Assembly: GCA_963082975.1 (NCBI GenBank)
Contig: OY720349.1
Span: forward strand, 65,966,501-66,030,500
Direction: 5' to 3'
Source: Labia minor
Lineage: Eukaryota > Arthropoda > Insecta > Dermaptera > Spongiphoridae
DNA: 64,000 bases
This document shows, piece after piece, positions 3,835 to 57,008 of the stretch (within the stretch, counting starts at the first letter, position 1; every line of letters begins with the position of its first letter). The notes beneath the pieces are model-generated. The model saw only the letters and a program-made list of their open reading frames with translations. It was not told the DNA's origin and searched no databases. The translations under genes were made by a program, and so were the position numbers.

Positions 3835-4870
3835 ATTAAATAGAAATATTTTTCTATTTCTAAGCCAGATATATTTCCAAATATTAAATAATTTTTTAAT
3901 TCCGAAAAGCTGCAAAGCACGTTTTTACCGACCGACGATAGTAAGGGAGGTATTGTTTTCACACCAAATTTCACATGTGGAGATTTTTACATATCTCCAC
4001 GAATCATGCATTTTCTAAACAGAAAAAAGTATTTTTAGCATGATGTCTGTCCGTCCGTCTGTCCGTCTGTCCGTCTGTCCGTCCGTATAGATGTGTACAG
4101 CCTGAACGGCTCAACCGATTTTGATGAAATTTGGTATATTTACTTAATGCATCAGTGGAATGAATTGATCAACTTTTGGTGCAAATCCGTGAACCGGAAG
4201 TGGTAGTATTAGCGATCGACGATAGGAAGGGAAGGGTTATTTTCACACCAAATTTCACATGAGGAGATTTTTTTATATATCACCACGAATCATGCACTTT
4301 GTATTGGTTTTATCCTCGGGAAAATCATATTTATTAGTTTTTTCTTGATTTAAAATTATATGACGTCATCCAGCCATTCATGACGTCACAGTCTGGTCTT
4401 ACATATAAATATATACATATATTATAAATAAAATAAAATTAAAAATATTTATGTTATATGCCTATCTGTTTTTTATTACATTAATAGATATATTAAAATT
4501 ATTTGAAATTGTTTCTGTAGCTGGAAATTAATTTACTTCAAACCGTCGGTCGGCCACAGGTCAACTTATTTTGTTTTTAGTTTGTTTTATAACCACTTGG
4601 GGCGATAAACAGTTTTTCAAAAAAACACTATAGAAAAAAAATATATGTATATATTATATATTTATGTATTATTGAGGAGCACAAGTTCATTCATTTTAAT
4701 CAGATTGATGCAAATGTGTAACATTTAATAATTTTAATAAATAATTAAAGAATTGTATATCAATATTTTTTAAAGGGTAGAGCGAGGTATTAATATTACC
4801 AGCCAAATCCAATAATAATGAATCATTTTTTTTAACTTAAGTACCGAGCCGAGGCTCGGGGTCCCGGTAC
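3835..4870 (+). repeat. Complex repeat R5, copy 1, interrupted by Helentron-like A1
   Basis: Flanks 3835-3926 and 4571-4870 match, in reverse orientation, the block around 24115-24500 and 24985-25030. The right part ends with a G+C-rich palindrome near 4845-4870 ('GAGCCGAGGCTCGG') followed by 'GGTCCCGGTACT', also present at 24117-24140 and 40955-40982. The A1 element (3927-4570) interrupts the copy. The 24.4 kb copy shows the uninterrupted site. Confidence 0.6.
3927..4570 (+). mobile_element. Helentron-like non-autonomous element, family A, copy A1
   Basis: Starts 'TTTTT-ACCGACCGACGATAG', carries a TCTGTCCGTCCG minisatellite near 4045-4086, contains a cAMP-response-like TGACGTCA palindrome near 4361-4388, and ends 'GTCGGTCGG...CAACTTATT'. 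The start motif ACCGACCGAC and the near-terminal GTCGGTCGGT are inverse. The other full copies follow this with the hairpin GACCTGGCCACAGGTC, but A1 has lost about nine bases there. No protein is encoded; open frames through the minisatellite are artefacts. Confidence 0.65.
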
Positions 4871-4974
4871 TGTTGACATTATCAGCCATTTTGGATCAGT
4901 AGTTTGTTTTTGACAACTGAAAAAGTTTTTGTGTATATAAAAAGTCACTTTTTTGTGTATTCTTCGATATTTAC

Positions 4975-5020
4975 TTAAAATAAGTTGACGTGTGGCCAGG
5001 CGCAGAACCGACCGACGTCC
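4975..5020 (-). mobile_element. Family A 3'-terminal fragment
   Basis: The minus strand carries CGTCGGTCGGTT followed by the GCCTGGCCAC hairpin region and CAACTTA. Only the 3' end of a family A element is present. Confidence 0.5.
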
Positions 5021-5362
5021 AAGGGTAAAGGACATGATTCCTCCAGGTAGAAGAGGGATTTAGAAGAAATCATGAGCTCACGTGAGGGCAGGGACGCCAA
5101 TCCCTGAAATAGAATTCTTTTCTACTGGGTTTATAGAAAAGAATCTACTCGTTACCCGGGATATTATTTTTAAATTTATTAAAAATTAATTTTATATTTC
5201 ATGAAACTTATTCAATTTTTTCTTATTTCTTCATAAATAAAAACAATAAATTATTTCCTTCCTTTTCAAGTAATAGTTATGTTATTTTAAGTTATTTATT
5301 TTTGAATATAAAATTTGAAAATAGAATAGAATAGCAGGAGAAATGTTTCAATGTTAAAATAC

Positions 5363-5730
5363 AATAAGTTTTCGTGTGGCCAGGCGCAGAACCGTCCGAC
5401 GGTTTGAAATTAATTAATTTCCAGCTACAGAAACAATTTCAAATAATTTTAATGTATCTATTAATGCAATAAAAAGCAGATATGAATATAACATAAATAT
5501 TTTTAATTTTATATTATTTATAATATATGTATATGTAAGACCAGGCTGTCACGTCATGAATGGCTGGATGACGTCATATAATTTTAAATTAAGAAAAAAC
5601 TAATAATAAAGATGATTTTTCTCGAGTATAAAACATACAAAGTGCATGCATGATTCGTGGTGATATGTAAAAACTCTCCTCATGTGAAATTTGGTGTGAA
5701 AACAACACCTCCCTTACTATCGCCGATCGG
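5363..5730 (-). mobile_element. Helentron-like element, family A, internally deleted copy A7
   Basis: Both ends of family A are recognisable on the minus strand: ACCGATCGGCGATAGTAAGG at the 5' end, and CCGTCGGACGGTT plus GGCCAC and AACTTATT at the 3' end. The copy is about 370 bp instead of about 630; the minisatellite half is missing. Confidence 0.55.
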
Positions 5731-6089
5731 TAAAAATGGATCAAAGAATCTGTATTAAATTTTGCGTTAAAATTGGAATAAAGTGCTCCAACGCACTTAA
5801 ATGTTGACTGTGGCATTCAGCGAGTATATTTTGTTTTAAAAAAAAAAGTTTATAAGTGGTACAAGCGCTCGAGATGTTGATGACGATGAGCATTTGCTCA
5901 CTGTTTTCTTCGAATAAAATGGCGAATGGCGTGGTGCATCATGGGTTCTTGCCAACAGGTATATATATATATAGATTTTATTATTGATAAATAATATTGA
6001 TTAATTTTTTAAAATAAAATTTTTTATAACTTTTATTTATTTATTTATTTTGTAAAATTCTCTTATAATGAGATACAACATTTTTCAAA

Positions 6090-6400
6090 TATAATCTCTG
6101 TGCCACCACGGTAATCAAAAGTTCTTGGGCACAGCAATCACATTTCCCCCAAGTATCCCTATCCTGAGTTATAACCATCCAACTCCTACTTTCTCCCATC
6201 TCTCTCACGCCCCTTCCTTCATTGTTCACCCACCGAGCCTCCTTGGTCTTCCAAGCGGACGTTTCCCAATCGGTCTCCCCACAAATATATTTTTCTCCAT
6301 TCTTTCCTCTCCCATTCTAGCCACGAGTTCTGCGGGTTTTTGATTTTACAATCATAACTATGTCTGGAGATGTATAGAGATCATGCAATTCTTCAAATAT
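6090..6400 (-). mobile_element. LINE 3' fragment, copy 2
   Basis: The plus strand at 6220-6345 repeats copy 1 nearly word for word (CCACCGAGC..TCCTTGGTCT, then CGGACGTTTCCCAATCGG, then CATTCTAGCCACG). It is antisense to the 'GRPIGKRPLGRP' segment of a LINE reverse-transcriptase polyprotein and is degraded by indels. Confidence 0.6.
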
Positions 6401-7459
6401 AATATCAACAATAAATATCATTCAAAAATATATGAATATATGATTAATAGATATTTGAATCATTATAAGGATTGAAATATTGTCCATTAAAGATTTAGAT
6501 AATTTATTATCAATTAAGAAAAAAATATACAATGGATTTGAAATAATTTTTTCATTTATCCTAATAGTATTTTTTTCCCCTCTTTTTATTAAATGAATTT
6601 ATCTTTTTTCTTCATTTATTTCTATTACTATTAAAAAATGAAAAGAAGTATTCATTCATGAAGAAAAAGATGAAAGATTAATTTTATCTTAAGAAACTTT
6701 CCAAGATCATTAGCCGATGAATCAGATGGTTTTAAATATCAAATCCAAATAAAAGGATGTTTATTATAATTTAATTTATTTATTTAATTTTTTTTTTTCA
6801 TTTCTTATATAGCATATAAAATTAAAAATTTCTACGATGAATGATGTTGATATACACTTCTATAAATTATATAATAAAACATTTAAGAAACTACAATGTA
6901 TATTTATATAATTATGCAGGTATTAGAAGTTAGGTAAGCTTATTTCTATAATTTTAAAAGTTTATTTTAGTGTAAGTCTTATTTCAATCAAAATTAATTT
7001 ATAAATATTTTTAAAAATTTAATTATGTTCGAATAACCTTCTTTAAGTCTCATAGCTCATGCTAAGCTAATTTATGGTTGAATTCCTTTAAATTATTTTT
7101 AATTATTAATAACATGATCATAAATAAATGTAAATATTAATAATTAATAGGATTGAAAATTTGAAATATATTTAAAATTTTTATAAATTAAGTAGAAATG
7201 AAAATCTACAATTATTTGAAATATATCTAAATGTCAATAACTAATTAATGATAAAAACACATATATATATTCATAACGGTTTTATGATTTATCAAGAAAA
7301 AAACTCTCACTAAATGACCAGAAATAACCTTCAATTAAATTATTGAGAAATAAATAAATATCTATAATAGTTTATAAAGAATTTCTGTAAGAATTCCAAT
7401 GAATAATTATAGTGTATATGAAGAAATGATGCCAGGATATATGATTTCCTTTTCATTGA
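6401..7459. other. A+T-rich stretch without a recognisable gene
   Basis: No coding-like composition, transposon terminus or structured repeat was seen. Confidence 0.6.
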
Positions 7460-11413: not shown

Positions 11414-12044
11414 ACCGACTGACGATAGTAAGGGAGGTATTGTTTTCACACCAAATTTCACATGTGGAGATTTTTACATATCTCCACGAATCATGCATTT
11501 TCTAAACAGAAAAAAGTATTTTTAGCATGATGTCTGTCCGTCCGTCTGTCCGTCCGTCCGTATAGATGTGTACAGCCTGAACGGCTCAACCGATTTTGAT
11601 GAAATTTGGTATATTTACTTAATGCATCAGTGGGATGAATTGATCAACTTTTGGTGCAATTCCGGAAACCGGAAGTGGTAGTATTAGCGATCGACGATAG
11701 GAAGGAAAGGGTTATTTTCACACCAAAGGAGATTTTTTTATATATCACCACGAATCATGCACTTTGTATTGGTTTTATCCTCGAGAAAAATCATATTTAT
11801 TAGTTTTTTCTTGATTTAAAATTATATGACGTCATCCAGCCATTCATGACGTCACAGCCTGGTCTTGAATATATATTATAAATAAAATAAAATTAAAAAT
11901 GTTTATATTTATTATTTATGTATCCATATCTGTTTTTTATTACATTAATAGATATATTAAAATTATTTGAAATTGTTTCTGTAGCTGGAAATTAATTTAT
12001 TTCAAACAGTCGGTCGGTTCGGACCTGGCCACAGGTCAACTTAT
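11414..12044 (+). mobile_element. Helentron-like element, family A, copy A2
   Basis: A near-complete copy: TTTTTACCGACTGACGATAG at the start, minisatellite at 11531-11562, GTCGGTCGGTTCGGACCTGG, the hairpin GACCTGGCCACAGGTC (12021-12036) and AACTTATT at the end. About 630 bp, no coding capacity. It lies about 540 bp from copy A3 in the same orientation. Confidence 0.7.
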
Positions 12045-12500
12045 TTTTTCTATAATAGATATAGGTATATATAAGATAATAAAAAATAATTTACCTATAA
12101 ATACAAAAATTGTAGATTATAGATTATTTTTTTTAAATATCATAATTTCTTTGTACATCTTGTAAAAATGTAAAATTTAGACATAATATTATGAAAATTA
12201 AAAATATATTCTGTATTTTATTAGGATAATTTAGAAGAAACGCGTCCTTTTTCAATCTCACACGCTTGAATACATTTTTTTAGTATATTTAGTTATTCAC
12301 ATCTACATACCAATTTTAATATTTTAATATTTTTCAAATCATTATAAATAGTTCAACTATGTATATATTAGATACTAATATAAATTTTTAGATAATTTCT
12401 ATAATTCACATAAAAAGTTTCGAATAGGCTCAGATTTGTATTAAGAGAATTAATATATCTATATCTATTTAAATATATATTAAATCTATATTACCAATAT

Positions 12501-12580: not shown

Positions 12581-13140
12581 ACCGACCGACGATAGTAAGG
12601 GAGGTATTGTTTTCACACAAAATTTCACATGTGGAGATTTTTACATATCTCCACGAATCATGCATTTTCTTAACAGAAAAAAAGTATTTTTAGCATGATG
12701 TCTATATATTTAATTAATGCATCAGTGGGATGAACTGATCAACTTTTGGTGCAAATCCGGAAACCGGAAGTGGTAGTATTAGCGATCGACGATAGGAAGG
12801 GAAGGGTTATTTTCATACCAAATTTCACATGAGGAGATTTTTTTACATATTATCACGAATCATGCACTTTGTATTGGTTTTATCCTCGAGAAAAATCATC
12901 TTTATTAGTTTTTTTCTTAATTTAAAATTATATGACGTCATCCAGCCATTCATGACGTCACAGCCTGGTCTTGCATATATATTATAAATAAAATAAAATT
13001 AAAAATATTTATGTTATATGCCTATCTGTTTTTTATTACATTAATAGATATATTAAAATTATTTGAAATTGTTTCTGTACCTGGAAATTAATTTATTTCA
13101 AACCGTCGGTCGGTTCGGACCTGGCCACAGGTCAACTTAT
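12581..13140 (+). mobile_element. Helentron-like element, family A, copy A3
   Basis: Start ACCGACCGACGATAG and 3' hairpin GACCTGGCCACAGGTC plus AACTTAT are intact. The minisatellite and the following segment are deleted, giving about 560 bp. The remainder is nearly identical to A2. Confidence 0.7.
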
Positions 13141-13719
13141 TTTTGTTTTATTTTAAGTATTCAAACAGAAAAAAAATATTTTAAATTATATAAATACGTA
13201 CGCTGGATAGGAAGAAAAACAAGTTAAAGTAATAGTACATCCGCATACCTGAAACAGCAAAAAAAAAACATAAATTAGTTAAATGTTTAAACAAGCTTTT
13301 CATAAAGAACAAAAATAAAAAAATAAAATATTTTAAAATTAATCAATTAATTTTTATTTTAGCGTTAATGAAATTGCTATAAAAATAATGTTGAAGGAAA
13401 TTGAATAATTTTTTAAATTTTTAGTACGAAAAAACTATAATTTAGTTTTACATGATAAATTGAAAATTTTTGACTCTTAGAGAAAGGATGAAAACAAATC
13501 ATTAACAAAATAATAACAAATGATTTCTATATATCTATATTTTTAATGTCGTTGGAATTATATTTATATTATTAAATTAAAATCTAGAAAAATATAATAT
13601 AATAATCATAATAAGGGTTTTTCTGTTCATTCGGTCGAAATAATTTATCAATTTCTATTATAAATCAGTAGTAATTGAAGATCTAAATAATAAAGTGATC
13701 AAATATTTTATTCATATTT

Positions 13720-14390
13720 TAATGGGTCATCTAAAAAGTATTTTCAAATTTGTGCCAATAAATGATATTAGTGGTCCTGTTTCGCGTATCGGTAACCACA
13801 CTAATCTGTTGGTATCAATTTAACGCGCGTTTGACACCTGACATGTGACGCTACATTTCTTGAGTTGACAATTTCGTTATGCATTGTTTTGGTTATCATT
13901 TATAAAAGTTCGGAAATGAGTGAAATGTCTGAATAAATTCATCATCTGATGTTTTTTCACTATTGAAAAAGCTCCAATGCATCAAAAACATCCAGAGAAG
14001 TCTGTGCCTTTACCTTAGAATGCTGTAAATGATTATAATCGGTTTGAATGTTTTCGTGGTGAAAATTTGATTGTGAAAGATTTTCGCTTCGGCCGGCTTC
14101 TTGCTGAAAAAGTCTCCCAAATTTGGGTAATTAGCAAGATAGACCGGCATGCAAGCTGCCAGGACATCGCTGAATCCTTGAGCATCAACCACCAAACAGT
14201 TTGGAATCATGAAAAGGGCAGTTTTCTCAAGAAAACTCGATGTTTGGGTGCCACATGAATTGGCTATGCGAAATTTGATCAACCGTGTCGACAACTCGAA
14301 ACGTTGGTAAATTGAAACAAAATGGATAAAATATAAAACGCAAACGATTGGTCAAAGCATGATAAAACGTCACAAAGCCGGGATTGATAT
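13720..14390 (+). pseudogene. Mariner transposase relic M1
   Basis: Broken reading frames on the plus strand carry mariner N-terminal features. 'WFECFRGENLIVKDFRFGR' (about 14042-14096) matches the linker between the two helix-turn-helix domains. 'DIAESLSINHQTVWNH' (about 14164-14211) is the second helix-turn-helix. After a frame change comes 'VWVPHELAMRNLINR', the (W)VPHEL motif. The DDD catalytic core is absent: the element is truncated against a family B repeat at about 14390. The left flank from 13723 (GGGTCATCTAAAAAGTATT) resembles a mariner terminal repeat. Confidence 0.75.
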
Positions 14391-14858
14391 AATATTTATT
14401 AAACAAGCGCATGTTTGGCTCTTTGTTGATGGCGCCACGTCACGTGTTGGCGCGTGAGATCTGTAGTGTTAAAAAATTAATTCTGGTACTTTCAGCGATT
14501 CAATCAAGCTGAAATTCTATATATAGCAGTTTTATACAAATTTTAATCATGTGAAAAATTATTAATTATCATTACAGTCACTTTAGAGGAAAACAAATCA
14601 AATCGTTGTAGGTAATGACCTTCTTCCGGTTGAGCTATATTTCTCAAAAGTTGATAGAAAACTACCAATTTTGAATAATGCCCATATACCAAATTTCATG
14701 ACGTTTTTGAGTAATCTTGTCTACATACATACATATACCCACACCCACACACACAGAGAGAGAGACAGACAGACATTTTTCTCAACCTTAATGAAAATGA
14801 TTCAGGAACCTTGAAAACGTATAAAAACATCAAAATCTCAACATCGAAAATTTCTTAA
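14390..14858 (-). mobile_element. Helentron-like element, family B, truncated copy
   Basis: Shares with the full B copies the GCGCATGTTTGGCTCTT region, the GACCTTCTTCCGGTTGAGC block, an ACACAC/GAGA microsatellite at 14736-14776, and the TCAGGAACCTTGAAAACG block. Both terminal structures (ACTATCTCGC and the GAGTG hairpin) are missing. It joins the mariner relic M1. Confidence 0.55.
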
Positions 14859-16971: not shown

Positions 16972-17132
16972 AGATAAAAGGACTCCAAATGGAAAATTAA
17001 GATTGGTAAATATTGGAATTACTATACTAAACCATTCAATATGGAGAAAATAAATAGAGACATAGGCTTTCAAATATATATTTGGAAAAAATACTTGAAT
17101 GATTGGCAGAAATTCAAATCACGAAAGTTAGA
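16972..17132 (+). repeat. 161-bp direct repeat, copy 1
   Basis: Matches 20313-20473 at all but about two positions by eye (A versus T at 16983, and C versus G in ACTATACTA). It contains a short open frame 'MEKINRDIGFQIYIWKKY'. The boundary is sharp at both sides, 3.3 kb apart, suggesting a recent copying event or an unrecognised interspersed repeat. Confidence 0.7.
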
Positions 17133-18197: not shown

Positions 18198-18238
18198 CTG
18201 TTCATGATACGAGCAACCGACTCTTAAATGGAAAAATC

Positions 18239-18829
18239 TGGAGTGTCTCCGCTCGACTATCTCGCAAATTTGTATCGGAATAATTAAAACATATATTATA
18301 TTTAAATTAAATTTAATTAATTATAAATTATAAATTAAAATTAATAAATAATATTTATTAAACCAGCGCGTGTTTGGCTCTGTTGATGGCACCACTTCAC
18401 GTGCTAGAGCTGATTTGCAGTCAACGAGTTATTCTGGTACTTTAAGCGATTCAATCAAGCTGAAATTCTATATATAGCAGTTTTAAACAATTTTTAATCA
18501 TGTGAAAACTATCAAACATATATCTTTATTTTTACGGTCAGTTTAGAGGAAAAAAAATGGTAACCCCTGGTTGGTAATGACCCTCTTCCGGATGAGCTAC
18601 ATTTTTGAAAAGGTGATAGAAAACTACAAATTTTGAAAAATGCCCGCGTACCAAATTTCAATATTCTAGCTCAAACCGTATTTGCGAAATCTTGTCTACA
18701 TACACACATACAGAGACATTTTTCTCAACTTTAGTGAAAATGACTTAAGGACCTTCAAAACGTATAAAAACATCAAAATATCGACATCGAAAATTTTCGT
18801 GATCGCATTACTATCTCTTGTGAGATAGT
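18239..18829 (-). mobile_element. Helentron-like element, family B, copy B1
   Basis: On the minus strand it starts TTTTTACTATCTCACAAG and ends GCGAGATAGTCGAGCGGAGACACTCCAG. The inverse motif ACTATCTCGC/GCGAGATAGT lies just inside the 3' hairpin GAG-GAGA-CTC type structure. The internal CA microsatellite is reduced to one short run here. Confidence 0.65.
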
Positions 18830-20802: not shown

Positions 20803-20866
<64 letters not shown>

Positions 20867-31622: not shown

Positions 31623-31654
<32 letters not shown>

Positions 31655-39819: not shown

Positions 39820-40985
39820 TTTATCTTATCTTATTATGCTAGCTAAAATTGTATATATATATATATATGTATATATATATAGCCATGGGTTCTCAAAAAC
39901 CGCTCTAACGATTTTTTCAAATTATAGATATAGTATTTATAAAGAAAAATTGAGTTTTATTGATCACATCTCAGGAAACGTACATTTTCATTAATTATTT
40001 CTTAATTTAAAATTATATATGGGTGACGTCACATGACATCCATTTTTATTTTTTAACTGAAATTGTATTAATATTTTTTTTTATTTAAAATATTTTAAAA
40101 TTTATTATTTAATTTCGGGTATATATTTCTGACCCCCTACACCTCGCAGAATTTAATGAAACTTCGCCACTTGATTCTTTGATTAATTCTAAGAAACTTT
40201 TTCCTTAGGCATTTCTTGGGAGAACTTCTAGTTTTCGAGATACAAGTGATTAAAGATTGGATATCAATCCATTGATATCCCATTTAGCTACCATGTCTTA
40301 GCAGTTTGACCATCAGAGGGCGCGACTAATTTTCGGTTTTTTCAGTTCGGATTGTATATAGAAAAATTAAAAAATTAATTAATAAAATAATTTTCCTATA
40401 TCCAAACCGAACAGAAAAAAACTAAAATTAGTGAATATGTGAATAATTAGTGAATTAGTCAATGAAAATTTCTTAATGGCTGCACATTTCGACATTCATA
40501 ACCATCTAATTGATATCCAATCATTAATCACTTGTATCTCGAAAACTAGAAGTTCTCCCAAGAAATGCCTAAGGAAAAAGTTTCTTAGAATTAAAGAATC
40601 AACTGGCGAAGTTTCATTAAATTCTGCGAGGTGTAGTGGGTCAGAAATATATACCGTTAGAACAATTGTTTTTACTCCCCGAGTTCGAAGGATCGAAACT
40701 CGCCAAGTGCATTTTTTTTATCTATTTTCGTGATTTATTTATTCATTGTTCTTTTATTAATTAAGTTTTAGATAGTTTTATAATTTTTAATATTTTTTCA
40801 ATAAAATATTATTTAATACATTTAATAATTGTAATAAATAATTAAAGAATTGTATATCAATATTTTTTAAAGGGTAGAGCGATAGCTCGGTGTCCCAGGT
40901 ATTAATATTACCAGCCAAATCCAATAATAATGAATCATTTTTTTTAACTTAAGTACCGAGCCAAGGCTCGGGGTCCCGGTACTTG
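39820..40985 (+). repeat. Complex repeat R5, long copy, with large foldback
   Basis: Shares its left part with 25480-25740 (reverse) and its right part with 4740-4870 and 24115-24260. Arms 40119-40268 and 40509-40653 are inverted and nearly identical over about 147 bp. A second inner pair (around 40327-40365 and 40390-40435) approaches the centre near 40380. The plus-strand open frame at 40476-40733 lies in the right arm and is not a credible gene. The copy ends in the GAGCCAAGGCTCGG palindrome. Confidence 0.65.
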
Positions 40986-41112: not shown

Positions 41113-42837
41113 TCAACCATGTTTTTTCTTATTTATAAAATGAATAAATAATTCACCAAAATATAATAAAGTTGACAATAATAAACCAATAAATAGTATA
41201 AAGAATGCAAATTGTAAATCATGAATTTTAAAAATCTTAAGTCTTTTAATTTGGCTCAAACTGTAAAAAATACGAGAATCATTCCAATAGAACATTTTTT
41301 CACCCCATTGACGAATTCCACTCTCGGTAAATGCATTCAATACACGACGATATTCTTTATCAAACGGAAATGGACTTGCATACAGTGGGAAAGAAGCAAT
41401 AATTTCTTTAACAATATGAATATTTGTTGTGTAGCCTGATAATACTTGCTTATAGTAATTTGTTAAAGTACAAGGAGCTATTAAAGTTAGCCTTCTATTT
41501 GTCAAAATTCCATCAAGATTGAAATTAGTATCAACACTCGGATTTTCGAATTTATCTAATTTAAAATCGACCTGTTTAACCATTTCTTTCATTAATGGAT
41601 CATGTTGGTCATGCCTATAAAACCATTTATTAGGGAATATTGATAAACACACAGAATTAAAAACACATTCAATTGTTAAATTTGCTTCTTTGATTTGTTC
41701 AATTTTGTTTATAGATGGTTTTAATTTTGGAACTTGCATGTTGCTGAAAATTTCACTCTGAAGACCACAGATAGTTATTATTGATGAGAGCATGAGAAGC
41801 CCTGCTATAACTCGAAGCTTCAAATTTGCTATGGAACTCCTCCATGTAATTGGATAGGCAACTATGAGATTGCCAATTTGATATAAAGCCTCAAAGTAAG
41901 AAATGTTGGTTTTGATGAACTTCCAACTCAAACTGGTTATTAGCCACAATACAATAAAAGCTAACCAAAGCTTCCATTCGAAACACCAGATGATTATTTG
42001 CCATCTGGGTCGTTCTTCTCCTTTCTGAAGAACAAAACACATCGACATTATATCATAAGCATCTGAAATTTCAAAAAATTCATATGGTTGGCTTGCAATA
42101 ACGTTTTCCAAAGTATATTGAAATCTTTTATTAGTCCTAGTAGTTACATTCCATTTTTCACATATATAATTTCGAATCAGTGTAAAAACATAACTAGAGT
42201 TTCCATATTTTCTATCATCTCTATTTGAATCAAAATAAACTGTTGTTCCATATAAATTTGGATTTTTATTAAAATAGGCTTCTTTTTTAATATTTTTTAT
42301 TTCTCTACCATGCGTATAAAACCATGGTTCATAGGTCCACATTTCAAATTTTTTTTCACATGTTTTATGGAACTGATATATAAATAGAGTTTGGTATAAA
42401 CCTCCATGTCGCTTGTTTTCAAATACTTGTAAAAACTTAAATCGAGAGCAAATTATTTCATAATAGTCTCTTAAATCATTATAAATAATAATTTTATTTC
42501 TTGGGTGCATATATTCATCAGATATAATGTTCTGTGAAGGAAAAGCCACATATAACACATTGATTTCCCTATTAGGTTTTGAAAACAACATCTCTTCATT
42601 ATATCCAATTAATACGATTGGCCAATTTTTGCTGAAAATTTGACACAGTTCACTCCAAAATGGATATTGAAAATGCGTTCGTTCAAATATATAGATGCTT
42701 TTATTAGGATAAAAATGTTCCCGTGAAGCGTTCAATAAATCATCAAAATTTAATTCTTGAATTAACAATAATTTTCCATCAGTATAATTTTTTATAAATA
42801 TAAACCAAATTATTAAATAGCTTTTTAATGGAATCAT
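41113..42837 (-). CDS. Divergent ionotropic receptor, intact and intronless (IR-1)
   Basis: 574 residues, full length for an insect ionotropic receptor, which are chemosensory cation-channel subunits related to glutamate receptors and located in the dendritic plasma membrane. The order matches: a hydrophobic N-terminus, an extracellular region with 'PRNKIIIY' (112-119) and 'MWTYEPW' (166-172), 'YICEKWN' (224-230), and 'KGEERPRW' just before TM1 (about 289-308). A re-entrant pore segment follows (about 316-332), then TM2 (about 341-360), a 'NMQVPKL' block, the second ligand-binding half, and TM3 (about 541-562). It lacks the canonical SYTANLAAF motif of true glutamate receptors. TTTAAT at 41093-41098 is an ATTAAA poly(A) signal on its strand. 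It is the most diverged copy in the window. Confidence 0.9.
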   Translation of the reverse strand: MIPLKSYLIIWFIFIKNYTDGKLLLIQELNFDDLLNASREHFYPNKSIYIFERTHFQYPFWSELCQIFSKNWPIVLIGYNEEMLFSKPNREINVLYVAFPSQNIISDEYMHPRNKIIIYNDLRDYYEIICSRFKFLQVFENKRHGGLYQTLFIYQFHKTCEKKFEMWTYEPWFYTHGREIKNIKKEAYFNKNPNLYGTTVYFDSNRDDRKYGNSSYVFTLIRNYICEKWNVTTRTNKRFQYTLENVIASQPYEFFEISDAYDIMSMCFVLQKGEERPRWQIIIWCFEWKLWLAFIVLWLITSLSWKFIKTNISYFEALYQIGNLIVAYPITWRSSIANLKLRVIAGLLMLSSIITICGLQSEIFSNMQVPKLKPSINKIEQIKEANLTIECVFNSVCLSIFPNKWFYRHDQHDPLMKEMVKQVDFKLDKFENPSVDTNFNLDGILTNRRLTLIAPCTLTNYYKQVLSGYTTNIHIVKEIIASFPLYASPFPFDKEYRRVLNAFTESGIRQWGEKMFYWNDSRIFYSLSQIKRLKIFKIHDLQFAFFILFIGLLLSTLLYFGELFIHFINKKKHG

Positions 42838-44440
42838 TATAATTTCTAGTAAAAACTAACTGTTTTTAACAAATAATTATGTGAAACTGAAATAGAAATA
42901 TTAATTCCTATAACTAATAATTTGGCCTTTAATGAGGCTTTATCAAGATATTACACCAAGTGTTACTATTATATTTGTTGCTAATGCATACTATAAATCG
43001 ATAATTCAAGTGAAGATAGGGTGAACATGTTTAATGATATTTAAAAAAAAAAAGATTAATCATTTTTTATACTTATCTTTTATTCCATGTAATACAAATT
43101 TATTTTAATTAGTTAATCAATATTTTTGAATAATAATAATTTATTTATATGTCCCATGAGATTCAATTATTTTTATTTTCCTGGGAAATAATATCATATG
43201 TAATTTTAATATGGCTGAAAATGTAGATAATTTATGAATGAATATTATATAATATTATTTTCAAAAATTACAAAAATAATATAATCTTAATGAATCCGAC
43301 AGCTTGAGAAATCGTGGGTATCTATCATTTAATTTATTATTATTATTGATTTGTTTTTCTTTATTAATATGAATATATAATTATATCTAATTAGATATCA
43401 ACGGCCTTGGCCTGATGGGAAACATTCTAAGATTATCTCTGTTAAAAATCGGACTGAATTTTTAAGTGATATCCATTTGATCTTATTTTCATGCCATTAA
43501 TTAATATATAGATGGTTGAACTGTATAGTATTATATCCAAAAGAATATAAAAACTTGAATATCTTAATATTTTAGAGAAGTTGTTCACTATATTTTGTTA
43601 ATAATTAATTTTTAATTTGTTTTGGTAATTAAAATTTAAATGTTGTGAAAACAGGGAGGTAGGGAAGGAATAAAGAGAACAAAGTTTGTCGCCTATCTGA
43701 CCTCACAGCCGCCATTTTGGATGTTCCAAAACATTATATTTCCCATATCATCAAATTTCGGGCCTTTTTTGTGGAAAATTATCTGAGCAAAAATTTCCTC
43801 ATGAAGCAAAAACTCTTTAAATTTTATTTTATTTGTACTGCAGGCCATTTAGATATGCATATATATATATATATATGAAACTTTCAGGGATTGTTGTGGG
43901 CATAACAAGGAAGGTTTTAGTGTAGTTAAATCCAAAATTAATTTAATTAGTGATATTTTGGTAAAGTCTATTCATGATTACCATGGTTACATTGAAAAAT
44001 TTACAATAAATAAATAAAAATAATTGGAAATCTTTTCAACTTATTATTTTGATAAATTTTATTAATATTTTTAATTTTTTTTAAACTGTCAAAAATAACA
44101 TACCTATAAAAAAATAACATACCTATAAAAATATAAATCACAATGTAGGTAAATATGCAGGTAATTTGAACTCCAACATGTAATATTAACAAATATTCTG
44201 GGATGGGAAAAATACTAAGATCATGTCATGTCCTAGTAAATATTTTGAATTTTATTAATCAATCTAATATAATGAAAATAAATTAATACTAAGATCATGT
44301 CATGTCCTATCAAATATTTTGAATTTTATTTTGAATCATACAATGGTAATGAAATAATGTAGGTAGACTTGTGAGACAAACAATTTGTTTTTGTTAACTT
44401 TTTTTTTAAATCGGCAGCCATGGTATTTGGAAACATTTCA
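42838..44440. other. Upstream region of IR-1, no further gene recognised
   Basis: A+T-rich. A patch at 43670-43760 contains GCCGCCATTTTGGATG, a YY1-type motif, but no adjoining coding start was found. Confidence 0.45.
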
Positions 44441-44960: not shown

Positions 44961-45124
44961 TTTCCTTATGATATTGAGTGATGAAATATTTCATTTTTCT
45001 ATGATTTAGTGATTAGTAATTAATTAAATTAAATAAATTAATTAAATAGATAATTATATCTCCGTCTCTTGGATCCCTCGACCAATCAAAAGCTGTGTAC
45101 AAACATACCCACATTTCACTTTTT

Positions 45125-45259
45125 ACTTTCCCGCATACTTCGTATAAGGGAAGTATTGGAATCGTCAAAAATTTCGACTTCGAGATTTCGATAGATCTTG
45201 ACGTTTTAGACCTCCCTGAGTCGGAAAATACCATTTTTCGAATTATGTCTGTGTGTGTG

Positions 45260-45290
<31 letters not shown>

Positions 45291-45727
45291 TGTCTGTGAG
45301 CAAATTTACTCAAAAACTAATCAAGCTAGGACTTCAAATTTGGTACACCGATATTATTCACAGTTTGTAGATTTCTATCAAAATTTCGTCAAAATCGGTT
45401 AACCGGAAGTGGTACTTTACCTACACTGGTTGCGTTTACCTTTCAAGTAAAGTACCAGTTTGCTTCGAGATATTTGCTTCCTATTTTGTATATAGATTTA
45501 AAAATATGAAAAAAATCAGATACCAAATTTCATCATGATCTGACTACCGGAAGTGACATTTTACCTATAGCTTTAGGTGTAGATTATAAATATATATAAT
45601 AGTGTTAAACCATTTTACTTTATAATTTAAATTAATTGGTTTGTTTATTTTTATTGTTTTTAAAACATAATAATAATAACCTAATTACCTATTTATATGC
45701 GGGAAAGTCTAGGGGAGGACACTCCCG
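45125..45727 (+). mobile_element. Helentron-like element, family C, copy C1
   Basis: Starts TTTTTACTTTCCCGCATACT, has (TG)n and (TATG)n repeats at 45248-45290, and ends TATGCGGGAAAGTCTAGG plus GGAGGACACTCCCG. ACTTTCCCGCATA and TATGCGGGAAAGT are inverse near-terminal motifs; GGGAG-GACA-CTCCC forms the 3' hairpin. The frames through the repeat (V-C-M-Y) are artefacts. C2 at 56395 is nearly identical. Confidence 0.7.
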
Positions 45728-45733
45728 CTTTTT

Positions 45734-45765
45734 ACCGACCGACGATAGTAAGGGAGGTATTGTTT
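45734..45765 (+). mobile_element. Family A 5'-end fragment
   Basis: Exactly the first 32 bp of family A (ACCGACCGACGATAGTAAGG and on), placed four T/C bases after the end of C1, then abruptly unrelated sequence. Confidence 0.6.
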
Positions 45766-46924: not shown

Positions 46925-47166
46925 TGAGCTTCTGACCATAATGAAGGCAAACCATGAAAAATGGGACGCTAAAAAACCATATGGAACAGATGTGATGACA
47001 CCAAGCATGATGTATTCATTCAAGTCTCTTCGGCTATTATTAAATAAGTAAAAAAAAATTCGGCTATTATTAAATAAGTAAAAAAAAATTAGGGAAATTT
47101 TTTTTTATTTAGGGATTTATTCTTTAGGGATATTTGCATTTAGGGATTTTTACATGATTTCTTTCA

Positions 47167-47637
47167 AAATATCCTGCCACTACGGGCGGACGAAAAGCTT
47201 TCGAAATCTTAAAGTAGTTTTTTTATAAATAACTCCTTTATTATTAAGTTTAGGTAAAAATGAATATAATGAAACTTTTAGTAAATTCGATTCACTATAA
47301 ATTTAATACGATAGTATGATAATTTTCATAAAAATCGGTATTAATTGAGAATTGACACCTCTTTAAACTACCCTTACTTATGGTCCGATCTTGTCCAAAA
47401 GCAATCCAATCCCCGCCCATCATTCCCAAAATAAACATCTAAATATCAAATTTCAAGACAATATCTTATTTTGTTTAGACATAATATTTGAAACGAACGG
47501 CCGGCCGGTTCAAAAATTTTTTTGCAGTTTTGGATTCAGAACGGTCTGAAAAGTGGAGATCTCAAAAAATCTCGGAGCAAAAATTTTCAAAATTTTCCGA
47601 TAATCGTATAAGCTATCCTTATTTCATGAGGAAAGCT
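47167..47637 (-). mobile_element. Family D element, copy D2, nested in E1
   Basis: Reverse copy of D1 with the same flanking sequence on the AGCTTTC side (for example CTTTCTAAAACTGTGAATAC). The insertion therefore predates the duplication of E1/E2. Ends AGCTTTCCTCATG and GAAAGCTTTTCGTCCG are preserved. Confidence 0.45.
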
Positions 47638-47913
47638 AAAATGATTTACTTATAGCTTGAAAAAAAATATTTTCTTTCTAAAACTGTGAATACGAGTAAA
47701 TAAAATACAAAATTAAATTTTTTTACCAGATTTTGTAAAATGAGTGTTTCATTTACAATACTTTTTTTTTAAATATTTAATATAAAAAAAAATCTTAATG
47801 AAAATTTGTCTTTGAGAGAGTCCGGGGGGGGGGGGGGCGTCATAGGAAGGTGGAGCGGCTAATCAAACCCCCCCTCCCCAGGATCAAATCCTGGTTGCGC
47901 CACTGACTTATTC

Positions 47914-49102: not shown

Positions 49103-50107
49103 TGAAGACCACAGGGGAAAAACTTGGTAACTCACAATTTCATAATTCTTCAGGAGAGCCATTTTAAGTTTTTCAAGTCATAAAACGGTCTTATAATACA
49201 TAATGATTTACTTTTGTATATATTTTTACCGACCGACGATAGTAAGGGAGGTATTGTTTTCACACCAAATTTCACATGTGGAGATTTTTACATATCTCCA
49301 CGAATCATGCATTTTCTAAACAGAAAAAAGTATTTTTAGCATGATGTCTGTCCGTCCGTCTGTCCGTCCGTCCGTATAGATGTGTACAGCCTGAACGGCT
49401 CAACCGATTTTGATGAAATTTGGTATATTTACTTAATGCATCAGTGGGATGAATTGATCAACTTTTGGTGCAATTCCGGAAACCGGAAGTGGTAGTATTA
49501 GCAATCGACGATAGGAAGGAAAGGGTTATTTTTTATATATCACCACGAATCATGCACTTTGTATTGGTTTTATCCTCGAGAAAAATCATATTTATTAGTT
49601 TTTTCTTGATTTAAAATTATATGACGTCATCCAGCCATTCATGACGTCACAGCCTGGTCTTGCATATATATTATAAATAAAATAAAATTAAAAATGTTTA
49701 TATTTATTATTTATGTATGCCTATCTGTTTTTTATTACATTAATAGATATATTAAAATTATTTGAAATTGTTTCTGTAGCTGGAAATTAATTTATTTCAA
49801 ACCGTCGGTCGGTTCGGACCTGGCCACAGGTCAACTTATTTACTATGTCATATATCTGTACATGTATTTTTATAAAACAGTATATAAAGTTGTTTGTAAA
49901 TAAAATTAAATAATAAAAAATATGTCTTGGACTTAAGTTCTTCCCCTGTATGGAATATTTTCAAATGCTTATCTATCTCTGGAGTTGCCAAATTATTTCC
50001 CAGGATGATTTTACTATCATAAAATACCCTATTTAGTGTATCCTATGACAACAAAATCAGAAAAAAACAAAAATTGGAGTTACCAAGTTTTTCCCCTGTA
50101 GTCTTCA
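49103..50107. mobile_element. Inverted-repeat element J, host of insertion A6
   Basis: About 31-bp inverted ends: TGAAGACCACAGGGGAAAAA at 49103 and its inverse closing at 50107, with one difference (C versus T after GAAGAC). CAGGGG at the core of the end resembles hAT termini, but no clean target duplication is visible. Without A6 (49228-49840) it would be about 390 bp. A third TTCCCCTGTA lies at about 49940-49950. No coding capacity. Confidence 0.6.
49228..49840 (+). mobile_element. Helentron-like element, family A, copy A6
   Basis: Complete copy: TTTTTACCGACCGACGATAG, minisatellite 49345-49376, GTCGGTCGGTTCGGACCTGG, hairpin GACCTGGCCACAGGTC (49817-49832), AACTTATT. About 35 bp around the second half differ from A2 by deletion. 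It sits within element J. Confidence 0.7.
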
Positions 50108-50362: not shown

Positions 50363-52129
50363 TTATGATATATAGAAGTATACTGGTGTATTATTATTGT
50401 TTGAATTAAGTAAACACATTTCTATAATAAATACGATAAATGAAATAGACAAACCAAAGATTAAAATAAAAAAAACAATTTGTAAATCTATTATAGTGAA
50501 TGATTTAACAGTCGAGTCTTCATTCATCGAATTCATAAATTCTTTGAATACAAACCATTCATTTAAATGATTTTCTAATTGCTGAAGTCCACTTTCTGAA
50601 TAGGAAAGTAATGCCTGGCGAAACTCTTTATCAAATATAAATGGCATAGCATTTAAAGGGAAGGAAGCAATTCTTTCATCTATTACATGTATGTTATCAG
50701 ACAGAAGTGTTACCTTAGAAATCAGGCTATGAAAAATGCTGCAGGGTCCTATGTATGTGAGTGTATTATTCAAAAGACCTTCGAAATTTTCTTTAGAAAA
50801 ATGGTTTTTTTCTTGTAAGTCATTAACCATTGATAATTGATTGCTCATTTCAATTAGTAAGGAATCCCCGCTATATTTAGAACTGTGAGCAAGAAAAAGC
50901 AAGGAACACATAGAAATATATATACATTTGATGGTTAAATTTGCTTCTTTGACATTTATAATTCGTCTCATTGGTGGATATAATAAGGGAACTCGCAAGT
51001 TGGTGTAAAATCTACTTTGAAAAGCTGTGACGGTGATTATTGAGGTTAAGATGAGAATACTTGCTACTAAACGGGTTCTAATGTTTTTTAAATTGCTTAT
51101 CCATGAAATAGGTTGACTTATCATAAGACTTCCAATTTGACAAAAAGAGTCAAAAAAAGAAATATTTTGAGTGATAAAAGACCATACTATTCCAGAGACT
51201 AACCATGCCACAAATATAGACAACCACAAGTCCCATTGGTATAACCTAACAATTGTTTCCCATTTGGGACGTTCCATACCTTTTTTGACAAAAAAGCACA
51301 TTGATACTATAGAATAGGGTTCAGCATCACGGTCTATATCTATTGGTTCAACGGCAATTCCATTTAAAATTGAATTAATCCCTCGATTTTTTTCTTCAAT
51401 CATTACAGTGATATTCCACTTTTCACATAAATATTCTCTAAGAATTTTAAATTCATAATTTTCTTTAATATCAATCAAAGTAGAATTAAAATCTTCAAGT
51501 TTTGTAGCAAAAAACACTTCTGCTCCATTTAAATTTGGTTTCTTATTAAAATAAGCTTGTTCGATTTTTTTAATTTTTCTTCCTCCAGATTCAAGCCAAG
51601 GTTCATAAGTCCAAAGTTGATATTTCTCAGTGCAATTTTGATGAAACTCAATAATAATTATAGTTTGAAACAAATAAGCAGCCGTGAAGTTACCAAAAAC
51701 TTTTTTATTGTATTGCTCTTTTGAACATATTTTAACCTGGAACGTTAAATCAATATATATAATAATTTTATTTCTTGGATGTGGCATTACAGTGTTTTCT
51801 ATATAAAAAAAATCCACATATAAAACATTGATTTCACTTGCAGGCTTCATTTTATGTTCTTCATTTGCAATTACTACCGTTGGATAGTTTATACTTATCA
51901 TATGACACAGTTCTTTCCAGTATATATATTTTGTATCTGATTTATCTACAATATAAACCTCTTTGTTCAAATAAAAATGTTGTCTTGAGATATTTAATAA
52001 AAAATCAAAATTTTTTTCTTTCGTAGATATTATTTGGTTGTTTAGTGAATTTACAATCAATCCAATAAAGATCAGAAACATAAACAAAAGCTTTTGCTGT
52101 TTAAATGTTGAAAATATATTCATATACAT
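50363..52129 (-). CDS. Divergent ionotropic receptor, intact and intronless (IR-2)
   Basis: 588 residues. A signal-anchor-like hydrophobic stretch (12-29) is followed by 'FDFLLNISRQHFYLNKEVYI', almost the same as in IR-3. Conserved blocks are 'PRNKIIIYIDL' (118-128), 'LWTYEPW' (172-178), 'YFNKKPNLNGAEV' (193-205), 'YLCEKWNI' (233-240) and 'KKGMERPKWE' (282-291). TM1 is about 300-320, the pore segment 'FCQIGSLMISQPIS' 329-342, TM2 about 352-371, then 'FYTNLRVPLL', and TM3 about 549-571. A likely odorant or taste receptor channel subunit. Met-4 is an alternative start. TTTATT at 50269-50274 and 50275-50280 gives AATAAA signals about 85-95 nt after the stop. It is head-to-head with IR-3. Confidence 0.92.
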   Translation of the reverse strand: MYMNIFSTFKQQKLLFMFLIFIGLIVNSLNNQIISTKEKNFDFLLNISRQHFYLNKEVYIVDKSDTKYIYWKELCHMISINYPTVVIANEEHKMKPASEINVLYVDFFYIENTVMPHPRNKIIIYIDLTFQVKICSKEQYNKKVFGNFTAAYLFQTIIIIEFHQNCTEKYQLWTYEPWLESGGRKIKKIEQAYFNKKPNLNGAEVFFATKLEDFNSTLIDIKENYEFKILREYLCEKWNITVMIEEKNRGINSILNGIAVEPIDIDRDAEPYSIVSMCFFVKKGMERPKWETIVRLYQWDLWLSIFVAWLVSGIVWSFITQNISFFDSFCQIGSLMISQPISWISNLKNIRTRLVASILILTSIITVTAFQSRFYTNLRVPLLYPPMRRIINVKEANLTIKCIYISMCSLLFLAHSSKYSGDSLLIEMSNQLSMVNDLQEKNHFSKENFEGLLNNTLTYIGPCSIFHSLISKVTLLSDNIHVIDERIASFPLNAMPFIFDKEFRQALLSYSESGLQQLENHLNEWFVFKEFMNSMNEDSTVKSFTIIDLQIVFFILIFGLSISFIVFIIEMCLLNSNNNNTPVYFYIS

Positions 52130-52256
52130 TCTTAAAAGTTTTACAATAACTGATATGTATTAATATGTTTACAGTTAAAGTAAGCTAATAAAAAATTTTC
52201 ATATAATGTAGTAATTATATCCACATATAATTATTCTCTGGTGAATATTTTTAAAT

Positions 52257-53830: not shown

Positions 53831-54131
53831 ATTTAAAAGTGAAAATAGATAAACTACTAACAGTATATAATAATATAATCAATTAGAAAAGACATATATG
53901 TATATAACCAAAAAAAAGTTTCCAATTAAGTAAATTAATATTTTTAATAAAAAACAAAACACAAATATTGATTAAAGGATAATAAAAGACAATTTTTTTA
54001 ATATTTAATGTCAGAATCATTTGACAATAATAAATTATTGGTTTAATTAATTACCAGCTTTTAATTTATTTTCAATTGTGAAGAACATTTGTTATACAAA
54101 GATCATTTAATTTAGAACATTTAATCCTAAT

Positions 54132-55832
54132 ATGAGTTTGTTAAAAATTTTTATTCTTCTTGGATTAATTATAAAATTACTAAATGCCCAATTAATAGTT
54201 ATGAAAGAAAAAAAGTTTGATTTTTTATTAAATATCTCCAAAGAACATTTTTATTTAGATAAAGAGACATATATTGTGGATAAATCAAAAGTAAAATATT
54301 TATTCGTAAAAGAACTGTGTCGAGTGTTGAGTGAATTTTGGCCAATTGTTGTGGATGTCTCAACAGTCCAGATTTATCGAAGAGAGATCAATGTGTTATT
54401 TGTGGATATTTTTGACATTCCTTATGAATATGAAAAATTACATCCAAGAAATAAAATTATAATTTATGTGGATTTAACGGATCAAATTAAAATATGTAAA
54501 AAAGAACAATACAACCAAATAATTAAAAATTATAATTTGTTTCAGGCAATCATTCTTTATGAGTTTCATGAAAATTGCAGAAAATCTTATGAACTTTGGA
54601 CTTATGAGCCTTGGCTCGCAACTGAAGGAAGAAAAATTAACAAAATTAAAGATGCTTATTTTAATAAGAAACCAAACTTTAATGGAGCAGAAGTGTATTT
54701 TATTACAAAACCTGGTGATATAAATTCTTCCTTGATTAAGATTAATGAAAATTATGAATTTAAAATACTAAGGGAATATTTATGTGAAAAGTGGAATATC
54801 ACTTTGTTAACTGAAGAAAATCATACGCTAATTGACTCACTTCTAAATGTGATTGCCAGTGAACCATCAATACTAACATTACTTCCATATGCAAGCGATT
54901 CTTATTCACTAGAACCAATATGTTGCCTAGTCAAAAAAGGCGATGAACGTCCAAAGTGGGAAACTATTTCGAAATGTTTCCAGTGGTCATTATGGTTGGC
55001 TTTATTTGTGGTTTGGTTAATCTCTGGAATGGTTTGGTGGCTTATCAAACAAGATATTTCTATTTTAGAGTCATTCTGGCAGGTGGGCTCTCTAATTGTG
55101 TCCCATCCTATTTCATCGGTGAGCAATATACGTTGCAACAGAATTCGCATTGTAACTGGTATTCTGATCTTAACATCAATAATTATTGTGACAGCTTTTC
55201 AAAGTAAACTTTACACCAACTTACGAGTTCCCTTATTAAATCCACCAATGACACAAATTAAAGATATTAATATAGCAAATCTAACTATCAGATGTAGATT
55301 TACTCTTCTTTGTATGATGTTATTTTCTAATAAATTAATGAATAATAGTCTTGATGAAATAAGAGATCCATTATTTGTTAGAATGTCCACTCAATATTCA
55401 ATTCCTTATAACATCGATGGAAATATAGATTTTTCTACTGAAATTGATTTAGAAGGTATTCTTAATCAAACAGTAGCATACATAGCACCCTGCAGTTTAT
55501 CTCAAAACGTGATTTCCAAGGATCCATTTTTATCTGACCAAATACATACAATTGAAGAAAGAATTGGTTCTTTTCCTTTATTTATATCTCCTTTTCCTTT
55601 TGATAAGAACTTTACTCAAGCACTCTTTTATTATATAGAGAGTGGACTTCACAATTGGGAGTTCCAAAGAAAAGAATGGTTGAAATTTTTTAAATATTTA
55701 TTGAATATGCAAAAATTCAAACCCTTGAAATCCTTCTCTTTAGAAGATTTACAAATTGTCTTTTATTTTCTGATCATTGGTTGGTTTTTCTCTTTATTCA
55801 CATTTATTGTAGAATTGTATTTTTCTAGTTAA
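54132..55832 (+). CDS. Divergent ionotropic receptor, intact and intronless (IR-3)
   Basis: 566 residues. Signal peptide 1-19 (hydrophobic, ending LLNA-Q). Blocks: 'FDFLLNISKEHFYLDKETYI' (29-48), 'PRNKIIIYVDL' (105-115), 'LWTYEPW' (155-161), 'YFNKKPNFNGAEV' (176-188), 'YLCEKWNI' (216-223), 'KKGDERPKWE' (268-277). TM1 285-305, pore segment 'FWQVGSLIVSHPIS' (315-328), TM2 338-357, 'YTNLRVPLL' (361-369), second ligand-binding lobe to about 535, TM3 541-561. The start is chosen at the first Met, which gives a complete signal peptide. AATAAA at 55871-55876 with a GT-rich tail is a good poly(A) site 39 nt past the stop. Closest in the window to IR-2. Role inferred: chemosensory cation-channel subunit. 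Confidence 0.92.
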   Translation: MSLLKIFILLGLIIKLLNAQLIVMKEKKFDFLLNISKEHFYLDKETYIVDKSKVKYLFVKELCRVLSEFWPIVVDVSTVQIYRREINVLFVDIFDIPYEYEKLHPRNKIIIYVDLTDQIKICKKEQYNQIIKNYNLFQAIILYEFHENCRKSYELWTYEPWLATEGRKINKIKDAYFNKKPNFNGAEVYFITKPGDINSSLIKINENYEFKILREYLCEKWNITLLTEENHTLIDSLLNVIASEPSILTLLPYASDSYSLEPICCLVKKGDERPKWETISKCFQWSLWLALFVVWLISGMVWWLIKQDISILESFWQVGSLIVSHPISSVSNIRCNRIRIVTGILILTSIIIVTAFQSKLYTNLRVPLLNPPMTQIKDINIANLTIRCRFTLLCMMLFSNKLMNNSLDEIRDPLFVRMSTQYSIPYNIDGNIDFSTEIDLEGILNQTVAYIAPCSLSQNVISKDPFLSDQIHTIEERIGSFPLFISPFPFDKNFTQALFYYIESGLHNWEFQRKEWLKFFKYLLNMQKFKPLKSFSLEDLQIVFYFLIIGWFFSLFTFIVELYFSS

Positions 55833-55870
55833 ATAATTTCAAATTTATTAGAATTAGATTAGTAATGTCA

Positions 55871-55876
55871 AATAAA
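55871..55876 (+). terminator. Poly(A) signal of IR-3
   Basis: AATAAA 39 nt after the stop codon, followed by TTGTTTGAGTG, a G/T-rich downstream element. Confidence 0.5.
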
Positions 55877-56040
55877 TTGTTTGAGTGAAAGCTATTTAAC
55901 TGCTGTTTACGATCTCTCCCTACCTCTCGACGACTTTTCTAGAAAATTCGTCCGGTCTTGTATCTAAGAAGTTTTTGAGTCAGTTTTTAATGTACATCGT
56001 CTTCTACTGCTCAAATTTGGTTTTATATAGAGCGGGAAAG

Positions 56041-56102
56041 ATGGTGCAAGGTTCAAAGAATACGGAGGATACTGCTATTCGAGCTCTTGAATTGTTAAAG
56101 AA
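56041..56102 (+). CDS. Candidate first coding exon, 20 codons
   Basis: ATG in good context (GGGAAAGATGG) opens 'MVQGSKNTEDTAIRALELLK' and meets a consensus donor AA|GTAAGG. The surrounding 55890-56300 is less A+T-rich than the flanks and has several CpGs, suiting a promoter, 5' leader and start of intron 1. The helical, charged peptide is not recognised. Its phase (two bases left over) does not match the cysteine-rich exon at 61174, so the two are not shown to belong together. The family C element C2 begins 290 bp downstream, within the putative intron. Confidence 0.38.
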
Positions 56103-56394
56103 GTAAGGTTTGACTTCTCACTCGAGTATTTTCATCTGAATAGCCTCACTCACGCGCTGTAGCTTGGCTTATTTGACAATTCTCCTCCCTAAAAGATGTT
56201 TTCAGACTCTTTTCATCAAATTAGGAAACGACTTCCGCTGCGAGACATTTTTGAACTTTGAAAGCAATTTCCGCGTGCTGTAAATTCGCCTCTGATGTCA
56301 GAAAATGTAACATTTATATTTACTAGAAAAATATAGTAAACATAATTTTTGCTCGTCTGGTTTTATATTGTCGAAAAAAATTGTTTAAATTTTT

Positions 56395-56529
56395 ACTTTC
56401 CCGCATACTTCGTATAAGGGAAGTATTGGAATCGTCAAAAATTTCGACTTCGAGATTTCGATAGATCTTGACGTTTTAGACCTCCCTGAGTCGGAAAATA
56501 CCATTTTTCGAATTATGTCTGTGTGTGTG

Positions 56530-56560
<31 letters not shown>

Positions 56561-57008
56561 TGTCTGTGAGCAAATTTACTCAAAAACTAATCAAGCTAGG
56601 ACTTCGAAATTTGGTACACCGATATTATTCACAGTTTATAGATTTCTATCAAAATTTCGTCAAAATCGGTGAACCGGAAGTGGTACTTTACCTACACTGG
56701 TTGCGTTTACCTTTCAAGTAAAGTACCAGTTTGCTTCGAGATATTTGCTTCATATTTTGTAGATAGATTTAAAAATATGAAAAAAATTCAGATACCAAAT
56801 TTCATCATGATCTGACTACCGGAAGTGACATTTTACCTATACAAGTAGCGTTAGGTGTAAATTATAAATATATATAATAGTGTTAAACCATTTTACTTTA
56901 TAATTTAAATTAATTAGTTTGTTTATTTTTATTGTTGTTAAAACATAATAATAATAATAACCTAATTTTCTATTTATATGCGGGAAAGTCTAGGGGAGGA
57001 CACTCCCG
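56395..57008 (+). mobile_element. Helentron-like element, family C, copy C2
   Basis: Nearly identical to C1: TTTTTACTTTCCCGCATACT, (TG)n/(TATG)n repeats at 56518-56560, TATGCGGGAAAGT and the hairpin GGGAG-GACA-CTCCC, ending CCCG before a T run. The high identity between copies 11 kb apart points to recent activity. Confidence 0.7.

Follow-up and report, generated by a model that had tools for sequence, protein, structure and literature searches.

Three families of short repeats (A, B and C) in a 64,000-nucleotide stretch of the Labia minor genome (contig OY720349.1, positions 65,966,501 to 66,030,500; hereafter the window, with a GC content of 26.2%), and probably also a decayed repeat (E), are best read as non-autonomous Helentron-associated elements (HINE) of common descent, a reading to which a probability of roughly 0.87 is given. 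The families were originally predicted to be unrelated sequences built to one Helentron-like plan, with subterminal inverted repeats (subTIRs) and a 3' hairpin. The plan is upheld by the present analysis and is more likely inherited than convergent; common descent accounts for it in the 5' half because the 5' block is, by sequence comparison, homologous across the families. The copies of A, B and C are as follows.

3927 to 4570, + strand: A1, long A, with a 12-bp gap in the 3' subTIR/hairpin region compared to other copies; sits in repeat D
11414 to 12045, + strand: A2, long A, 5' subTIR with one substitution
12581 to 13141, + strand: A3, A without the microsatellite; the module after it is partly missing
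28752 to 29367, - strand: A4, long A, full plan
32277 to 33005, + strand: A5, A-type at the 5' block and the 3' end, the body in between being different
49228 to 49840, + strand: A6, long A, full plan
5363 to 5731, - strand: A-short, 5' segment directly joined to 3' half, without microsatellite or module
4979 to 5016, - strand: isolated A-type 3' end (inverse of the subTIR plus the stretch after it), located downstream of A-short
33009 to 33038, + strand: lone A-type 5' start, exact 10-mer, 3 nt past the A5 3' end
45734 to 45765, + strand: lone A 5' start of 32 bp, beyond the C1 3' end and a T-run
14389 to 14853, - strand: B1, B without either end
18238 to 18829, - strand: B2, diverged B
20688 to 21325, + strand: B3, full plan, with 5' hairpin
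31133 to 31769, - strand: B4, full plan
45125 to 45727, + strand: C1, full plan
56395 to 57008, + strand: C2, full plan

The original prediction had left A-short, the isolated A-type 3' end, the lone starts at 33009 and 45734, the truncated B1 and repeat E unnamed.

The terminal plan

Each family begins with its own start motif, and the inverse of that motif recurs near the 3' end and is followed by a hairpin with a loop of four nucleotides (GCCA in A, GAGA in B and GACA in C), as had been predicted. In the window, the start motif of A (ACCGACCGAC) has 16 matches with at most one mismatch compared to 0.29 expected, that of B (ACTATCTCGC) has 7 compared to 1.07 expected, and that of C (ACTTTCCCGCATA) has 4 with at most two mismatches compared to 0.78 expected; all four C matches are exact, and the count of four is only just beyond chance, being reached in 1 of 100 shuffles with mismatches allowed. 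A motif-free scan for the plan required TTT followed by a 9-mer that begins with A and has at least three G/C, the inverse of the 9-mer 300 to 1200 nt further on, and a hairpin with a 5-bp stem and a 4-nt loop no more than 30 nt past the inverse. The scan found six sites on both strands combined (A4, A6, B3, B4, C1 and C2), a result reached in 0 of 100 dinucleotide shuffles; its limits were chosen with the elements already known, and it is therefore a test of chance and not of discovery. The strict scan misses the remaining six of 12 bounded copies (A1, A2, A3, A5, A-short and B2), in which a subTIR or hairpin carries a substitution or a deletion or, as in A3, the start is preceded by AATT and not by TTT.

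The predicted start after a T-run holds throughout, at least two T's standing upstream in all 12 tabulated copies, and the predicted microsatellite in the first half is present in most copies but not in A3 or A-short, and is short in B2. The subTIRs are 10 bp long in A and B and 13 bp in C, and in each of the six full-plan copies the two ends match; the inverted motif at the 3' end is subterminal, ending approximately 19-27 nt inside the element. Folding of the 3' hairpin gives z values of -2.3 (A), -2.0 (B) and -3.7 (C), the best fold in C being one in which the subTIR pairs with the 3' arm. The 5' end of B also forms a hairpin, ACTATCTC-GCCA-GAGATAGT (z -7.3), and the 5' inverted repeat of C is weaker (z -2.4). 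The two ends of each family change together: two of the first ten bases distinguish the start of B (ACTATCTCGC) from that of C (ACTTTCCCGC), and exactly these two also distinguish their 3' inverses; A departs from both at more bases, again at both ends. This coordinated change fits a single protein, or pairing, that reads both ends.

Homology of the 5' block

Sequence similarity shows that the three families have homologous 5' blocks. All have the same order of an arm, a TGTCT microsatellite, and a module of approximately 130 bp in which GAAATTTGGTA is followed by CCGGAAG. Global alignment of the 140 bp past the microsatellite scores 70.0 for A-B (shuffle maximum 49.5), 61.5 for A-C (42.0) and 127 for B-C (52.0), none of which was reached in 2000 shuffles, and the 5' arms align globally with scores reached in 0 of 2000 shuffles for A-C and B-C and in 28 of 2000 for A-B. 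Profiles were then built with the microsatellites removed and one family omitted from each. The A+C profile recovers B4, B3, B2 and B1 with E-values of 1.5e-14, 1.3e-12, 4.5e-11 and 1.5e-10; the A+B profile recovers C2 and C1 (7.4e-22 and 9e-21); and the B+C profile recovers A1, A4, A6, A2, A3 and A5 (6.7e-6, 3.3e-5, 2.2e-4, 2.3e-4, 4.5e-3 and 5.8e-3). The claim that the families lack sequence similarity is thereby refuted, each omitted family being recovered. A profile of A alone matches C2 and C1 (2.2e-5 and 6.6e-5) and B4, B1 and B3 (1.9e-4, 2.9e-3 and 3.9e-3), B2 not being among its matches. Outside A, B, C and E the best E-values are 0.57 (A+C), 6.6 (A+B), 2.3 (B+C) and 5.7 (A). The lone start at 45734 is matched with an E-value of 7.7e-7 and that at 33009 weakly (0.24 with A, 0.12 with A+C).

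All 12 sites of GAAATTTGGTA in the window lie within A, B or C (0.18 expected), as do all 12 sites of CCGGAAGWG (0.07 expected). Three of the GAAATTTGGTA sites (in A3, C1 and C2) are in inverse orientation and do not belong to the module; an exact GAAATTTGGTA is missing from the modules of A3, A5 and C1, and an exact CCGGAAGWG from A5 and B1. Within C, a second CCGGAAGTG occurs at 45519-45555 and at 56789-56827 with an inverse GAAATTTGGTA further on, and the shared module seems to be partly duplicated there. ACCGGAAGT is the consensus of ETS factors. In viral contigs there were no matches to a 20-mer of the core or to two gapped core patterns; the 20-mer had three matches in bacterial contigs of the genome contig collection, taken as chance, and a literal search of the literature for four core-like words returned none.

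These results bear on convergent parasitism, according to which the demands of one replicase gave three unrelated sequences the same terminal plan. The subTIRs and 3' hairpins of A differ strongly from those of B and C and the 3' halves have little or no significant similarity, as convergence would have it, but the 5' blocks are homologous by leave-one-family-out profiles and shuffled alignments and keep the same order of arm, TGTCT microsatellite, GAAATTTGGTA and CCGGAAG, which makes convergence very improbable. Convergence, or the existence of several independent replicases, had been inferred from the lack of similarity between families, and that inference is therefore unsupported.

The decayed repeat E is represented by two copies.

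37292 to 37875, + strand: E1, interior probably matching the shared 5' block
47159 to 47724, - strand: E2, 93% identical to E1

The A+C profile matches E1 and E2 with E-values of 1.3e-7 and 5.8e-7, respectively, whereas those of B+C (0.0084 and 0.035), A+B (0.1 and 0.14) and A alone (0.42 and 1.1) are weak, and E is therefore considered only a probable relative of A, B and C on the strength of its sequence. Near E2, positions 47029-47090 comprise approximately two perfect tandem copies of 30 bp.

Insertion sites

The insertion of A1 can be reconstructed from repeat D, which has four copies in the window.

3892 to 3926 and 4573 to 4871, + strand: repeat D, host of A1
24116 to 24470, - strand: repeat D, uninterrupted, the empty site for A1
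40818 to 40983, + strand: repeat D
25110 to 25212, - strand: repeat D

Three of the four share a common 3' end that includes a GC-rich palindrome (GTACCGAGCC...GGTACT), and the 5' extents vary. The empty site reads GCACG-T7-GTCTTTAG, and the filled site reads GCACG-T5, the element ending in CAACTTA, and TTTT-GTTTTTAG; with the end of the element taken as CAACTTATT, five T's plus two account for the T7 of the empty site. When joined, the flanks of A1 are 97.2% identical to 24470-24365 over 106 columns. Thus, A1 entered a T-run, and duplication of anything other than T's is excluded at that site. No credible empty site was found within the window for any of the remaining 11 tabulated copies: for A2, A3, A6, B3 and C2, the matches to the joined flanks were disregarded as mere alignments of AT-rich DNA (68-89%); for A5, the first match is its own locus, and the second, like those for C1, falls on other A starts.

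Evidence against common descent as HINE, and alternatives

Several results weigh against the reading of A, B and C as HINE of common descent. Six motif patterns of Rep/helicase proteins are absent from all six frames of the window, so no autonomous partner is shown, and the empty site of A1 is the single one in hand. C1 is flanked by CTTTTT at 45119-45124 and 45728-45733 and C2 by AATTTTT at 56388-56394 and 57009-57015, either of which is a possible target duplication. The 3' hairpin is altered in A5 and in the isolated A-type 3' end, neither of which folds better than shuffled sequence (z -0.18 and +0.97); inspection of the letters indicates that it is also altered in A1, A-short and B2. In addition, A has no clear 5' inverted repeat beside its subTIR (fold z -0.37). 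With stricter local scoring, the A-B relationship is weaker, the scores being reached in 3 of 1000 shuffles for the core (0 for A-C and for B-C) and in 17 of 1000 for the 5' arms (6 for A-C and 0 for B-C), and the global alignments and leave-one-family-out profiles described above were added because of these values. Finally, the scores of the 3' parts were reached in 42 (A-B), 66 (A-C) and 5 (B-C) of 1000 shuffles; the 3' halves cannot be shown to be related in sequence, and therefore common descent is established for the 5' block only.

The flanks of C bear on whether the elements are miniature inverted-repeat transposable elements (MITEs) mobilised by a cut-and-paste transposase. In both C copies the bases that precede the T-run on the left recur to the right of the last hairpin base, and these repeats could be short target duplications; among the 903 runs of five or more T's in the window, the chance of the preceding base being C is 0.148 and of the preceding bases being AA is 0.235, for a product of approximately 0.035 that was picked post hoc. 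The 6-7 bp flanking repeats of both C copies agree with MITEs, as do the short length, the lack of coding and the inverted repeats, and DINE-1 was once so classed (PMC2374699). The 3' inverted motif, lying inside the element, and the lack of a non-T duplication at the empty site of A1 are contrary to cut-and-paste transposition, which was rejected for A on that one empty site, may apply to C, and as an account of all three families is scarcely credible. Of the features originally named as what would indicate cut-and-paste transposons, A has neither true terminal inverted repeats nor, at the empty site of A1, a non-T target duplication, and the flanking repeats of C may be such duplications. 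A canonical Helitron (5' TC, 3' CTRR, A/T insertion) was also rejected: the elements start with AC after T's, and their 3' ends are CTTATT, CTAATTT and CTCCCG.

The weak similarity of the 3' halves and the existence of composite forms bring up modular exchange, in which a single conserved 5' block acquired different 3' halves and termini through rolling-circle end bypass or template switching, making the families chimeras rather than lineages that merely diverged. In the middle of long A, its first 90 bp or so recur as a diverged second copy, and A-short is a mosaic of these two 5' segments, its start being mostly as in the first copy and its continuation as in the second. A-type ends enclose differing bodies (long A and A5), the isolated 3' end is preceded by other sequence, and lone A starts lie right beside C1 and A5 at their 3' ends. 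The differing bodies, the mosaic A-short, and the likeness of B and C in the 5' block and less in the 3' part suggest that modular exchange is possible, at less than even odds, but rapid divergence of non-coding bodies would look identical, and each family is represented by only a few copies. Clusters and captures were ascribed to bypassed ends or termination by Thomas et al. 2014 (PMC4067079), and we infer that bypassed ends lie behind the composite forms of A.

If A, B and C are HINE of common descent, a Rep/helicase(-endonuclease) encoded elsewhere would nick at the T immediately before AC..., and a single strand would be rolled off, stopped at the 3' hairpin and joined into another T-run. 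Recognition of both subterminal repeats of a family by one protein would make the pair change in concert, and bypassed or premature stops would produce the second 5' segment of long A, A-short, the differing bodies enclosed by A-type ends, and the lone starts beside 3' ends.

Comparison to known elements

The assignment of A, B and C to non-autonomous Helentrons of the HINE/DINE-1 kind is well supported because of the subTIRs, the 3' stem-loop, the T-run targets, the microsatellite in the 5' block, and one empty site (that of A1) with insertion into a T-run without target modification or non-T duplication; no recognised coding sequence is present. Elements with the same anatomy include DINE-1 (PMC2374699) and elements of a mite (PMC4067079), an oyster (PMC7492417) and a blowfly (PMC3630058), and the window elements are new families of this known kind as far as literature and sequence scans tell. 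DINE-1/INE-1 of Drosophila (Yang and Barbash 2008, PMC2374699) has subTIRs, a conserved core, a stem-loop at the 3' end, insertion at TT, no coding capacity, a partial inverted repeat next to the 5' subTIR (with candidates here in B and C), and a microsatellite inside the conserved 5' block (here of GTCY type in A), but its motifs and body are different, and 11 of 12 Drosophila species had one DINE-1 type whereas three, probably four, families are present here in 64 kb. The HINEs of Metaseiulus, Culex and Drosophila (PMC4067079) likewise include several families per genome on one plan, with T-run targets of variable T number and empty sites without target modification; as differences, the mite families are said to be without inverted repeat and core, and autonomous partners were found there. 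In the Pacific oyster, Cg_HINE (PMC7492417) comprises eleven elements in a single genome, of which some have related and others independent modules, with GTCY, GTCC or GTCK microsatellites in several, and element-specific changes of subTIR, inverted repeat and stem; its satellite-like central arrays are not seen in the window copies. In Calliphora, Helitron2_Cv and Helitron3_Cv (PMC3630058) are two DINE1-like families in a 600-kb region with a GTCY-rich microsatellite and a 3' stem-loop, which differ in host and sequences, Helitron3_Cv being without a 3' subTIR. Similarity to the INE-1 core, in an approximate version of its sequence, is weak or absent, the scores being reached in 3 (C2), 58 (B3) and 1980 (A6) of 2000 shuffles.

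Gene context of the window

Three mutually homologous long open reading frames (ORFs) look like an insect ionotropic-receptor cluster.

41113 to 42855, - strand: long ORF
50363 to 52159, - strand: long ORF
54111 to 55832, + strand: long ORF

Stop to stop, they encode 573-598 aa, with 55% and 40% identity to the first. In a Pfam scan of all 28 ORFs of at least 90 aa (E 0.01), one of the three has a sub-threshold match to Lig_chan (ligand-gated channel; 27 bits compared to a cut-off of 30.8) and the other two have none; this is the sole match among these ORFs, and there were no matches inside A, B or C elements. Scans of the window found no Rfam matches at the gathering score and no tRNA. A repeat family over short open frames (2365-2642, 6096-6394 and 30042-30438) looks like a decayed retroelement and has no Pfam match, and 161 bp at 16972-17132 are repeated at 20313-20473 with 98.8% identity.

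Implications

The module that follows the microsatellite (GAAATTTGGTA...CCGGAAG) might be a cis site required for transposition, such as a replication-start or host-factor site, around which termini and bodies are swapped like cassettes; this is a speculation that is unlikely to be correct. It is an extension of earlier thinking, since the conserved core of DINE-1 was already suggested to be important (PMC2374699). Common descent of the 5' block removes an apparent case of convergence and indicates that microsatellites and fast-changing ends can hide a homologous 5' block. If the module is functional, Helentron-type transposition would have a further cis requirement, one that can be tested, besides the terminal repeats and the hairpin.

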